A stretch of DNA of 64,000 nucleotides from contig JAIWZP010000006.1 of the NCBI GenBank assembly GCA_025201375.1, positions 744,001 through 808,000 on the forward strand. The letters run 5' to 3'. The stretch comes from Gongronella butleri (taxonomy: Eukaryota; Mucoromycota; Mucoromycetes; Mucorales; Cunninghamellaceae). Under the pieces are notes generated by a model. That model was not told the DNA's origin, did no database searches, and saw only the letters and a list, made by a program, of their open reading frames with translations. Shown one piece after another: positions 20,725 through 37,287 of the stretch. A program made the translations under genes and the position numbers. Within the stretch, counting starts at the first letter, position 1. Each line of letters opens with the position of its first letter.

Positions 20725-21983
20725 ATGATTAGCTTCTTGCTCATGGTGAACAAGCAGTGCAAGACGCGCTTTTCACGGTACTATTCCCAGGATATCGACG
20801 ACCCTGTGGCCTTTGAGGCTCGACTCGCGCGCGACTGTGTGCAGCGGCCCGCCTCGCACGTAAGCCCACTTTATATCCCACGAGGAGGCCCTCGGCACGC
20901 CACGACCCGCGTCCCAATAGGCATTTGCACGCTCACAGCTCTTTTTTTTTTTTTTTTTTTTGTCGTTTTGCTCGCCAGTGCTTGTTTTATACCTTTGAAG
21001 AATATCATATCGGTAATAAAACAAAAAAGAGTGTCGGAAAAGGGGCAATTGCGTAGCAATTGGGCGCCAAGGACACCAATTGACTCCCAGCAAGCTTGGC
21101 TGCCTTCCCCACGATCTGATCCATCCCTTTTTTTTCCATTTTCTTGGTCCCTGCAAGTCTATCGTGTGTATGGCAATCTGATCTTGATCATTGGTTCCGA
21201 CTCACCAGAGGTAAGTCGTCCACGCCTCCTAGGATTATGAGGCACCGTGGGCAATCCAAGCCAACGTCTTATTCTTTGTCTTTTGCTTGGTTCCTCCAAT
21301 TTATTTAGAACGAATTCGCGCTCCTAGAATGGCTCCAACTGCTTATGGGTAAAATTGATAATCAGCGGAACCCGGGCAGCGAGTGAGGAGGCGTGGAAAA
21401 AGCTAAAACAATGAAAAAACGTCGTTTTTCGTGCCTTTTTTTTTTTTCTCGTAGAGACCATGAATCGCTATTTTGATACCGTGGTAAGTGTCGGTGGGAA
21501 GACTTTGGCAGTGGGCCGTGTGGACAATTTGGGCAATTTGGATCGTTGAGCATGAATCTTATTTTTTTTCCTTCATTCTGTACGATGGCCACGAAAAAAA
21601 GACGGAAATGGACATCATTTTTCAACTGGAAAAAGTTCACGATCTCGTGAATGAGATGCTGCCTAAAGGGCTGCTGGCGGAAGCCAATCCAGAACGTGTT
21701 TTGAGCGCCCTAATCAATAAAAAACGAGTATAAGGTTCAACCTTCACTGAATACAGTATGACATCATAAGCAAACATCATACCCCTTTTTGCAGGCTCAA
21801 CGTAAGGAGAGATGCAGTAAAGCGCTCGTAGCCACCTTGTGCTTGGCCGGCACGCGTTCCTTTTTATTACGCGCTCAGGTCGAAACACGCGTCGCGATGC
21901 GTTGCGACGCGTCCGACATCGCGACGCGTCCAACGCGTGAATTGGGTCAGCTCTTCATCTTCACGCGCCATCCGCATCCATGA
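20725..21983 (+). CDS. AP-4 adaptor complex small subunit (sigma), many small exons
   Basis: Seven exons (20725-20859, 20979-21012, 21158-21210, 21309-21348, 21455-21483, 21602-21727, 21795-21983) keep phase throughout. The product is a sigma adaptin of a heterotetrameric coat complex for cargo sorting at the trans-Golgi. The start MISFLLMVNKQCKTRFSRYY has the MVNKQ-TR-S-YY pattern of AP-4 sigma rather than the isoform patterns of AP-1, AP-2 or AP-3. The rest follows the family: FYTFEEYHIVYRVYGNLILI, ENEFALLEWLQLL and MDIIFQLEKVHDLVNEML. The shared fold ends around residue 145. The last exon then reads on for 62 codons with unconserved R/A/T-rich sequence. In the degenerate copy at 25.3-26.1 kb the matching frame stops right after AQRKER, so the tail may be the result of a 4-nt difference. 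Exons of 34, 40 and 29 nt are notable. Exon 6 uses an A-rich acceptor. Confidence 0.85.
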
Positions 21984-22399
21984 TTTGCTTGGTCACCAGC
22001 TTGTCCATTAAGTCCAGTCATCACCGTCTCGTCTTTGGCCGCGCTGCACGCGCTGCACGCGCATCCCAATCCAAGCATATATCTCTGCTGCGCTGTAAGC
22101 GCACAAGTCTCAAGCCAATTCAGCCTCTCGACGTGTTGCGCGCACACTCGATCCTCAGCACCAGACTCTTGCCACGCTTTTCACGCACCAACTCGACAAG
22201 GCGTCATTTTGTACAAAAACCCCATCATTTCCGCTCGCTCTTCTTTTTTTTTTTTTCCAACGATTACATGCCTGACGCGACGAGTGGTCTCCGCAGACTC
22301 CGACCACGCGCTACCTCTCATCATGCACATCAATTTATGACATGATATGACTAGTTTATTTCCTAGACCCGCTCATGGCGGTGTCATCATCCATTCAGG
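21984..22399. other. 3' flank of the Fanzor-like gene with a perfect-stem hairpin
   Basis: This lies between the adaptin stop and the stop of the minus-strand nuclease gene. No gene is seen. At 22,284-22,307 GTGGTC and GACCAC form a 6-bp perfect stem around a 12-nt loop that can itself pair further (GTCT with AGAC on the minus strand). In Fanzor and TnpB systems the guide RNA (omega RNA) is usually made from the region at and beyond the 3' end of the nuclease gene, so this is the place to look for one. That it encodes such an RNA is inference. Confidence 0.3.
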
Positions 22400-23602
22400 C
22401 TATCCAGCTGACGGATTGACTAAAAACTTTACAATTTTTTCGTCCAAATCGTTGTCTTGAAAGAGGAGTGGGTGTTTGCCGCACGCATTGAGGTAAAGAC
22501 CGACAATGGCCATGAGAGTGGCCGAGTTTAAATCGCGGGACATGGCGGCTTGGCGGTGGCGTCGCCCGACGCAAGCGGGATTGATACACACCACGACGCC
22601 CAATGGCCGCCGCGGTGGATGCACGACATGGCCCAGGCAGCGGCAGCAGGTGACACTGGTGTGGAACTCATTGGTTTTTACCACTCGTGCCTTGATGAAT
22701 TGAGCATGCGATGACCGCGTATGGCCCTTGATTCGCGAGTTGACAGCTCGACCCGCGTCGCCGAAGTACACGGTCGCCTGAGATGGGCTCTTGGCAAGTG
22801 CATTTACCGCGTTGGCCGCACAGGCGTACGCACGCTCCTTGAGCGATAGCTTGCTGCGCGCATCAGTTGTGGCTTTCTTGGATTTGACATAGAAATCAAT
22901 CAGCGCAGGGCGGCATTCGAGTTGAGTCGCGCGTGCGTCGTAAGGCGTGGTCGACGGCGTCGCCGCAACAGCGAGCTTTTTCTCCATTTCCATGACGAGC
23001 TTGGGTTTCCGGGCTTGGAGCTGGTTTTGACGTGAAGTTGTGCCTGCTATGTGCCGAATATGCTTCGATGTGATTGTGAGCGCCTTGGCGGGTGCGGGCG
23101 TGTCGTTGGCTACAGCGTCGTTGATATGCGTGGCAAATCGGGGAATGGTGCGTACGTGATGCACAAAGTCTTTCCAATTGAGAGCTGCCGCTGTCGCGAA
23201 TGTCTTGAGGCCCGGGTCCACGCCTACGATGACATTAAAGCTGCCGGATGGAGGGTTCTTGGTGGTCGCCGCCTTGCCAAAGGACTCGTCTTTCAGGACT
23301 GCCTTGTTGGTACGCTCGATACGTACTTTTGCATCCATCTGCACGATCTTGCCCAAGACAACACGCAACTCCTGCTTGGCTGCGTCGCGGTCCATGACTT
23401 TGACCTGGCAGAGTCGGGACTCATCCTTGCCAAACACATGTTCTTTCTTGTGCATATCCACGTTGTTTGGACCAACAAATCGTCGGATGCTTCCTTCAAA
23501 GCGGCATTTGTAAACAGCGCCCTTGTGCTGCGTGTCGTGATGATTGAGAAGATGTTCGATGGAGCGCTTTTGATGTCCTTCGTGCAATTCGCGTCGGGGC
23601 AT
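22400..23602 (-). CDS. Fanzor-type (eukaryotic TnpB/OrfB) RNA-guided nuclease core
   Basis: The open frame of about 400 codons carries the split RuvC nuclease of the IS605 OrfB/TnpB-Fanzor superfamily, whose members cut DNA guided by an RNA made at their own transposon end. Numbering from the TTG-opened frame at 23608: RuvC-I is VGVDPGLKTFATAAA with Asp131. The RuvC-II region is ATVYFGDAG with Asp284, followed by KGHTRSS. KTNEFHTSVTCCRC supplies Glu314, in the position of the relocated catalytic glutamate described for Fanzors, and the first zinc pair (C321, C324). CINPAC supplies the second pair (C341, C346). RuvC-III is MSRDLNSATL with Asp359. The relocated glutamate and the FGD motif favour Fanzor over bacterial TnpB. 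The frame holds no intron. The first ATG is at 23602, but homology continues upstream through a broken zinc-finger region, so the true N-terminus is uncertain. A C2H2-like finger (YKCRFEGS, HKKEH) lies at residues 33-57. Confidence 0.85.
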   Translation of the reverse strand: MPRRELHEGHQKRSIEHLLNHHDTQHKGAVYKCRFEGSIRRFVGPNNVDMHKKEHVFGKDESRLCQVKVMDRDAAKQELRVVLGKIVQMDAKVRIERTNKAVLKDESFGKAATTKNPPSGSFNVIVGVDPGLKTFATAAALNWKDFVHHVRTIPRFATHINDAVANDTPAPAKALTITSKHIRHIAGTTSRQNQLQARKPKLVMEMEKKLAVAATPSTTPYDARATQLECRPALIDFYVKSKKATTDARSKLSLKERAYACAANAVNALAKSPSQATVYFGDAGRAVNSRIKGHTRSSHAQFIKARVVKTNEFHTSVTCCRCLGHVVHPPRRPLGVVVCINPACVGRRHRQAAMSRDLNSATLMAIVGLYLNACGKHPLLFQDNDLDEKIVKFLVNPSAG

Positions 23603-23936
23603 GTCCAATTGGCTTTCACCTTCTTGCTCATGTACTGTGCTTGGCTTTCATGTGCTGAGATCGGGCGCGAGAATCGGCAAACACCTCGGTGCAATACGGG
23701 CATCGTTTGGGCGTGTCGTATTTGTGGGTCGCTGCATGATTGGCTAAATCGGTCTTCGACGCGAACACATTTTCGCAGCTTGGCTCGGGGCAAGATTGGC
23801 CTAGTTATTCAACATCGTGATGCTCCAGCGCGTGCTCTTGATAATGTGGCGGGTGGTAAAAGTGGTGCCGCCATCCAAATCAGCCAAAATATCGTGAAGT
23901 GCGATTTCCTCGAAATTTTATCAAGTTAACAGACAT
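23603..23936 (-). pseudogene. decayed N-terminal C2H2 zinc-finger array of the Fanzor-like gene
   Basis: Upstream of the nuclease frame the minus strand still encodes zinc fingers but in broken frames. One frame from an ATG at 23936 reads HPPHYQEHALEHHD, then a stop, then CPEPSCENVFASKTDLANHA and KRCPYCTEVFADSRARSQHM before a TGA near 23,630. The next finger (NWTCPDANCTKD) is in a second frame, and its helix half (SIEHLLNHHDTQHKG) is in the nuclease frame. There are thus two in-frame stops (near 23,880 and 23,805) and two frame changes. The same order of motifs is intact in the protein at 36,655-37,287 (YQEHALQSHD, LASEKDLKRHSRIHK, KWRCPDADC). I infer that the nuclease once carried this array and has lost it, unless the breaks are assembly errors; they do not sit in homopolymers. 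Confidence 0.7.
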
Positions 23937-24220
23937 CGTGTGAGAACTTTATTCGATTCTAAATTAAATTTTGCAGCGGGCAAGAGCGATTCAAGTTATT
24001 TTGAGGCACTTTTATTAGAGCTAATCGCAAAATTCGAGCCTAAACCTTATGTATTATATGTACTCAACAAAATCCAGCAATTGGAGATGCAATTTAGAAC
24101 ATCACCACGAATTTCTACATCCTCGATACGTAACATCTAAAATATTAGTTAGAGCTTCAACATGATTGGCCAAAACTTGAGTAGATTATGATGAATACAT
24201 ATAATACATTGTTTCGCAAA
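23937..24220 (+). other. AT-rich insert with a 66-codon open frame
   Basis: Base composition changes sharply here to roughly 35-40% G+C against about 50% on both sides. On the plus strand an open frame at about 23,940-24,140 reads with good protein-like composition (for example FEALLLELIAKFEPKPYVLY and VLNKIQQLEMQFR) and stops at TAA. I do not recognise it. It begins a few bases from the first possible start of the Fanzor-like gene, on the opposite strand. It could be a fragment of a viral, mitochondrial or transposon gene; nothing in the sequence decides between these. Confidence 0.35.
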
Positions 24221-24375
24221 ATAACGCCGCGGCAGGGGACGGCGACATGGGCAATGGGGAGGTGGTGGAAGGCTTGGAGGCTTGGAGGATTGGGATTTGG
24301 GTGATTGCACGCGGCTTCGTTGGTGGCAGAGGACCGCTCCTTAGGCGAATTGATGGGTTCAATCTTTTTGGGCAT
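24221..24375 (-). pseudogene. possible 5' fragment of a truncated gene
   Basis: An ATG at 24375 (minus strand) follows a pyrimidine-rich leader like those of real genes nearby. The frame starts MPKKIEPINSPKERSSATNE and continues with P/H/A-rich sequence until it runs into the AT-rich insert near 24,220, where protein-like character ends. I infer a first exon cut off by the insert. No family can be assigned, and a chance frame is possible. Confidence 0.25.
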
Positions 24376-36640: not shown

Positions 36641-36654
36641 AGGGCAAGGGCAGA

Positions 36655-37287
36655 ATGTTTGACCGCGACGTCCTCCCCGCCAAATCAGAGTCGTTCACGG
36701 TGTACGACCTGTCGCCGCGTGGCACTGATCCACACCCCGAGAATCACCCTGCGGAATACCAAGAACACGCCCTTCAATCACACGACACCGAATTGGCCTA
36801 TCCTTGCGAACATCCGGGGTGCGACCTGGTCCTGGCGTCAGAGAAAGATCTTAAACGTCACAGTCGCATTCACAAGTCCAAGAAGCCCTTTGAATGCTTG
36901 TATTGTGATGCACTGTTCGCCTCAAAATATGACCGAGCCCAACATATACGAGACAAGCAGAGCAACAAGATGAAACATAGCAAATGGCGTTGTCCTGATG
37001 CCGACTGCAATGATGATTACTCCAGCAGCACTCTGGCCTCAGTTTTTCGCCACAACAACACTACACATCGCGGCATTTTGCACCGATGCCTGCATGCCGG
37101 ATGCATCAAGCGTTATACCAGCCCTGAGAATCTCGCCAATCATGCCGTGATTCACCAGACAGGCATACTTGAATGCCCGATGATGTGCGGCAAAAAAGTT
37201 ATCGATATCAAGAACCACTTGCGCAAGTTCCACAACTTGTCTGGCGACGCATTGAAAGAAATGATGAAACTTTTGAAAAAGAAATAA
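36655..37287 (+). CDS. C2H2 zinc-finger protein related to the Fanzor N-terminal array
   Basis: An uninterrupted frame of 210 codons. After a short leader it carries about four C2H2 fingers: YPCEHPGCDLV with KRHSRIH, FECLYCDALF with AQHIRDK (last His lost), WRCPDADC with FRHNNTTH, and HRCLHAGC with ANHAVIH. A final CPMMCGKK with HLRKFH resembles a fifth finger. The tail is basic (MMKLLKKK). Order and spacing of YQEHAL, the fingers and CPDADC match the decayed region in front of the Fanzor-like nuclease at 23.6-23.9 kb. It may be a free-standing transcription-factor-like gene from which the Fanzor array was drawn, or the N-terminal remnant of another Fanzor copy. It ends 158 nt before the converging end of the RNA polymerase III gene. 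Confidence 0.7.
   Translation: MFDRDVLPAKSESFTVYDLSPRGTDPHPENHPAEYQEHALQSHDTELAYPCEHPGCDLVLASEKDLKRHSRIHKSKKPFECLYCDALFASKYDRAQHIRDKQSNKMKHSKWRCPDADCNDDYSSSTLASVFRHNNTTHRGILHRCLHAGCIKRYTSPENLANHAVIHQTGILECPMMCGKKVIDIKNHLRKFHNLSGDALKEMMKLLKKK

Follow-up and report, generated by a model that had tools for sequence, protein, structure and literature searches.

A truncated, mosaic Fanzor1 copy joined to a decayed zinc-finger fragment in the genome of Gongronella butleri

Introduction

The closest described relatives of the locus considered here are the Fanzor1 nucleases. In their published structures, as presented in the available text of PMC11423790, the WED and REC domains serve to bind the guide and recognise the TAM, and the catalytic residues of SpuFz1 are D383, E541 and D606. 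For Fanzor-related TnpBs, the accessible part of PMC10711439 gives a strict zinc pattern of the form CxxC...CxxC-x(4,8)-D. Two further sets of loci invite comparison at the level of whole copies, namely the Fanzor1 elements CRe-1/2/3 of Chlamydomonas and the “ghost” loci of S. punctatus. A search of the open-licence PMC literature found no paper pairing Gongronella butleri with Fanzor.

We analyzed a stretch of 64,000 nucleotides of the G. butleri genome (hereafter the window), in which an initial annotation had singled out a Fanzor-type RNA-guided nuclease. We hold with good confidence that this locus is a 5′-truncated recombinant copy of a very divergent G. butleri Fanzor1 family, which lies among repeat fragments and is fused, in the same reading frame, with the remains of a zinc-finger gene; the comparisons below establish its family, the truncation, the mosaic structure and the decay of the fingers. 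A promising nuclease call is thereby corrected to a beheaded copy, and attention moves to a full-length gene of the same family at a second locus, C4.

Results and Discussion

An open frame with the nuclease half of Fanzor1

The frame is real: it lies on the minus strand (22400..23602), running from an ATG at 23602 to a TAG at 22402-22400 over 400 codons, and all the motifs listed for this intron-free frame were found in it (VGVDPGLKTF, ATVYFGDAG, NEFHTSVTCCRC, CINPAC and MSRDLNSATL). An alternative TTG start at 23608 extends it to 402 aa, and it is this longer frame that the residue numbers first given (Asp131, Asp284, Glu314 and Asp359) fit. The corresponding minus-strand codons, numbered from the TTG and then from the ATG, are those of the RuvC-I aspartate within DPG (23216..23218; D131/D129), the GDAG aspartate (22757..22759; D284/D282), the relocated catalytic glutamate six residues before CxxC (22667..22669; E314/E312) and the RuvC-III aspartate within SRDLN (22532..22534; D359/D357). 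The frame is chimeric: its first ~66-68 residues are C2H2 zinc-finger sequence, not Fanzor, and the remainder is the Fanzor1 RuvC/TNB half (22403..23405, minus strand; DNA match from 23399), which is homologous to the fifth exon of the 1161-aa gene on contig C4. Since residues 68-402 share 82% protein identity with C4, the frame is more than a chance opening.

A motif check agrees with the earlier reading of a relocated glutamate and of nuclease and zinc residues that are all present, with DPG at 129 and E312-x6-CxxC in place. The strict zinc pattern of the TnpBs is unmatched, the second pair being C-x4-C and the aspartate lying farther off; a relaxed pattern devised in this analysis does match. 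The same set of features (DPG, GD, a Glu six before CxxC, C-x4-C and RD) is shared with the Fanzor1 structures of SpuFz1 (8gkh), PpFz1 (9cf0) and GtFz1 (9cer).

Profile comparisons place the window nuclease half with Fanzor1. An alignment of the window core with C4 and a further copy, C30 (A2), was compared by hhalign with a Fanzor1-like alignment of four ENA/JGI contig proteins (A7; P0006, P0008, P0009 and P0010), giving a probability of 97.3 and an E of 2.3e-11 over 185 columns. Against the PDB, A7 retrieved three distinct sequences at E ≤0.001, all of them Fanzor1 (SpuFz1 9e-58, PpFz1 3e-53, GtFz1 4e-39), and it is on this chain of matches that the membership, and with it the originally proposed Fanzor-type identity, stands. 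In a joint profile dominated by the A7 relatives, the window Asp, Glu and Asp align to the same motifs of SpuFz1. A2 alone retrieved no Fanzor from the PDB, and its match to five other G. butleri Fanzors is modest (probability 35, E 4e-4). The Pfam PF07282 score of 18 bits is below the cut-off of 26.3, as is that of the window core against NCBIfam guided_TnpB (E 1.5e-5, 24.5 bits, cut-off 100), a model that 3/3 family members match at E 1 or better; no Pfam match was obtained with the 1161-aa C4 protein. Unlike the Fanzor1 proteins of known structure, this family falls under the PF07282 cut-off and has a parent of 1161 aa with an unmatched N-terminus. PADLOC gave weak matches only, the best to Cas12f (E 0.0078), and the two AlphaFold models have mean pLDDT values of 35.7 and 33.9, which are too low to place the D/E/D residues in one site. 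Taken at the level of sequence profiles, the family is a strongly divergent Fanzor1 lineage, and the window copy a new member of Fanzor1.

Its relatives are few. A protein search at E 0.01 among 3984 candidates recovered one protein, its own, and at least one, the C4 protein itself, was recovered among the best 7986 candidates. A mixed profile at E 0.001 found at least nine proteins among the best 7998 candidates, comprising its own, two further G. butleri proteins, one Hesseltinella vesiculosa protein and five encoded on ENA/JGI contigs. A search of viral contigs with P0006 yielded no confirmed match. Within the genome, PF07282 has 20 matches at E 0.001 (19 of them above cut-off), none of which is at the window copy, C4, C30 or C13, these last three being the other coding copies of the family: C4 is full-length and C13 decayed.

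The absent N-terminal half and its replacement

The C4 parent gene, spliced in this analysis from five exons with GT..AG introns, encodes a product of 1161 aa that is identical, letter for letter, to the deposited Gongronella butleri protein BC940DRAFT_314393. No empty site was recognised from the flanks of this gene. Homology of the window copy to it becomes recognisable at residue 823 of the parent, a point nine residues inside exon 5, and the DNA match sets in at 23399, near the border of that exon, so ~820 N-terminal parent residues are absent. From the start of homology to the RuvC-I Asp the window has 60 codons, against the 882 residues that precede this Asp in the parent. The suggestion that the core could still be active is unsupported on this ground, the missing stretch being where the WED/REC of Fanzor1 should lie, which handle guide and TAM in the structures covered in the available text of PMC11423790. 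A sequence comparison of the C4 N-terminus with Fanzor WED/REC gave no clear match; from length and position, we infer that these domains, present in SpuFz1, PpFz1 and GtFz1, have been lost from the window copy. With the whole guide- and target-binding half absent, the copy very probably encodes no working RNA-guided nuclease. The initial annotation had described the N-terminus as broken, which is right as far as it goes and understates the case: it is missing, and a degenerate zinc-finger fragment stands in its place.

That fragment (23396..23867, minus strand) is spread over three frames and is collinear with residues 408-562 of a host protein frame, L014. In tblastn searches with L014 and L015, it matches at 23867-23637, 23628-23563 (with L015) and 23641-23396 in frames -3, -2 and -1, respectively. 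It is interrupted by one stop and two frameshifts, and in its last finger a Cys has become Ser, which removes a zinc ligand. One could imagine a domesticated chimera in which the zinc fingers replace the guide RNA, yielding a natural zinc-finger RuvC nuclease, as the last finger and the RuvC share one open frame in which the nuclease residues are all there; given the stop, the frameshifts and the lost Cys of the array, and given that both sister copies checked, C4 and C30, have other sequence upstream, we grant this next to no probability, and a functional fusion of this kind is rejected on the decay of the fingers. L015 is itself a C2H2 zinc-finger frame (36643-37284) and a relative of this fragment.

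The truncated copy is bordered by repeats. The zinc-finger fragment is adjoined by dispersed repeat A, of ~310 bp (23873..24183, minus strand), and just past the right end of the copy lies a fragment of dispersed repeat B (21832..22337, minus strand), which in L020 belongs to a 915-bp LTR-like element (TG...CA) with GCAAA on both sides. The wider stretch of the window has at least 45 matches in the genome (the best 40 of 163 candidates having been scored). Another repeat is 96% identical between L038:4213-4587 and L037:756-1129, and at C30 it stops exactly at the start of the Fanzor homology.

A recombinant copy with hints of constraint

Over the stretch that both sisters cover, the nuclease half of the window copy is, judging from its site patterns, a recombinant, with a breakpoint at 22667..22677 (minus strand), at the catalytic glutamate codon. 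The 5′ side is C30-like: between 23049 and 22677 its identity is 97.6% with C30 and 78.5% with C4. The 3′ side, from 22667 to 22350, is C4-like, with 96.6% identity to C4 and 74.5% to C30. To the left of 22677, 76 C4-only and 4 C30-only sites were counted, and to the right of 22667, 1 and 72 (Fisher 1.6e-37, with sites treated as independent). This comparison spans 23049-22350; the segment 23399-23049 is comparable with C4 alone, as C30 does not cover it. It is very unlikely in our estimation that faulty assembly produced the mosaic or the frameshifts and that an intact Fanzor gene lies at the locus: related copies do exist, and a collapse of repeats could join them, but the breakpoint is single and sharp, the matches on its two sides reach 96-98%, and upstream lies unrelated sequence of zinc fingers and repeats.

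The pairwise dN/dS of the window copy against C4 is 0.22, from which selection on this copy might have been read; that reading was dropped, because in a mosaic the divergence is mainly that of the parents. At coding sites of the overlap where C4 and C30 agree, the window copy has 11 changes of its own, which divide 1, 3 and 7 by codon position and are too few to tell much about selection. The Fanzor part is open over 332 codons without a stop, and both deletions that set it apart from C4 and C30, of 9 and 12 nt, are in frame; these features, together with the 1/3/7 split, are hints of constraint that run against the view of a dead copy. On the reading that we favor, that of a truncated recombinant copy, the frame would still be open mainly through youth, as each part that can be compared matches one of the sister copies at 96-98%.

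A conserved, folded right end

The right end of the copy (22350..22420, minus strand) is structured, with three stems from the stop codon to ...GGAAATAAACTAGT, and is a possible omega-RNA scaffold. The three ORF-bearing copies (window, C4 and C30) all end at GCGGGTCTAGGAAATAAACTAGT, with their last 23/23 nt identical in 3/3, and the last ~70 nt of each fold into three stems. Whole-genome pattern searches brought the right ends to five, adding C35, a solo right end of 38 nt that, folded alone, retains just the last stem, and C56, a decayed remnant. With the first pattern, which lacked C56, the control gave 0 hits; the second had 5 hits against 4 in the reversed control, and the third, built with C56 in view, had 5 against 1, and more diverged ends may have escaped these searches. 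Because those controls gave 4 and 1 hits, the case for C56 is its longer match to the window (~150 nt, 64%, E 1e-5), in which the stems are, by eye, partly broken. The last loop holds AATAAA in four of the right ends and AACAAA in C56. Rfam returned two matches on 21700-24300, both far under their gathering scores.

The evidence for a conserved structure comes from paired changes. Between C4 and C30, the region of the first stem has ten differences; three pairs changed in a compensatory way, and none is broken. On the given structure, this compensation has a P of 0.0005, an optimistic value, the structure having been chosen on the same sequences; in a refolding control on the same two copies, energy gave a P of 0.006 and compensatory pairs one of 0.003, with 0.0007 for the two jointly. 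Across four sequences, 97.2% of 72 cells are paired and five pairs changed on both sides, a result reached by 0/500 shuffles and likewise optimistic from the use of the same sequences to pick the structure; slid controls pair 25-43%. One of the five changed pairs is a U-G of C35 in a stem that C35 otherwise lacks; a compensatory change is also seen in the last stem of C35. Folded singly, the right ends give z-scores of -2.4 (window), -1.7 (C4), -1.4 (C30) and -1.0 (C35), with -0.8 for 150 nt of the window.

The right end may act as an omega-RNA, as a DNA hairpin of transposition or as an mRNA 3′ end, or in several of these ways. Together with the solo copy at C35 and the remnant at C56, it resembles an omega-RNA scaffold and the Fanzor “ghost” loci. 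The available text of PMC10432273 describes S. punctatus loci with a right-end RNA-like segment and no intact nuclease gene, to which the G. butleri right ends are alike in this respect; those loci differ in having two terminal inverted repeats and, for comparison, a Fanzor omega-RNA supported by small RNAs. On this analogy, the window locus might itself be a ghost, in which the protein is dead but transcription of the right end yields an omega-RNA that takes its guide from the flanking sequence and serves the C4 Fanzor in trans. The compensated three-stem structure, the solo right end at C35 and the decayed one at C56 speak for this, as does the precedent of omega-RNA loci without a Fanzor ORF (PMC10432273, in the same text); we nonetheless deem it unlikely, as the right ends number just five, most of them do not stand out when folded singly (z -2.4 to -0.8), and the same hairpins could act as DNA in transposition or in the 3′ processing of an mRNA, as the AATAAA that four of them carry in the last loop would allow. 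The fuller proposition, of a new, deeply divergent Fanzor1 lineage with a right-end omega-RNA and 3′-anchored copies, of which the window copy is a recombinant ghost programming the C4 nuclease in trans, is one that we regard as improbable. As part of the preferred reading of a truncated recombinant copy, the conserved folded right end would be either the omega-RNA scaffold of the family or its transposon end. It can be tested as a candidate guide-RNA scaffold, and should it prove to be an omega-RNA, it would provide a fungal case of guide RNAs outliving their nuclease gene.

Spread of the family and other Fanzor elements of the genome

Neither a left end nor a convincing target duplication was found for the four of the five right ends examined: the exact repeats at the window copy and C4 are of only 7 and 8 bases, and C30 and C35 have none. 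Three of the five termini read CTAGT, and the other two CTTGT and CGTGT, so the CTRRT end of Helitrons fits 3/5. According to the available text of PMC3627910, canonical Helitrons may have no target duplication, and the Chlamydomonas elements CRe-1/2/3 have kept 3′ ends, truncated 5′ ends and a hairpin near the 3′ end, as do the G. butleri copies, whose 3′-anchored, 5′-truncated pattern thus recalls them. In the same source, the CRe ends are common with those of Helitrons and many have target duplications, whereas G. butleri has CTAGT at 3/5 ends, no convincing duplication and a single degenerate Helitron Rep match in the genome (L046, C23:689603-690181, with two internal stops). The copies may have been made by a 3′-anchored process that truncates 5′ ends, for which a Helitron is one candidate carrier.

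Considered genome-wide, the full-length C4 gene and certain 5.1-kb Fanzor elements are better candidates for a mobile system than the window copy. The latter are represented by a Fanzor-bearing stretch of 5.1 kb that is 94.8% identical at L060:1869-6950 (C1:137368-142449) and L061:1771-6897 (C75:42770-47896), with sharp borders and ends of the GCAAAAAAAA/TTTTTTTTGC type. A second pair of Fanzor stretches, at C55 and C39, is 90.5% identical across at least 4.7 kb. Both pairs look recently mobile and outrank the window copy as Fanzor candidates.
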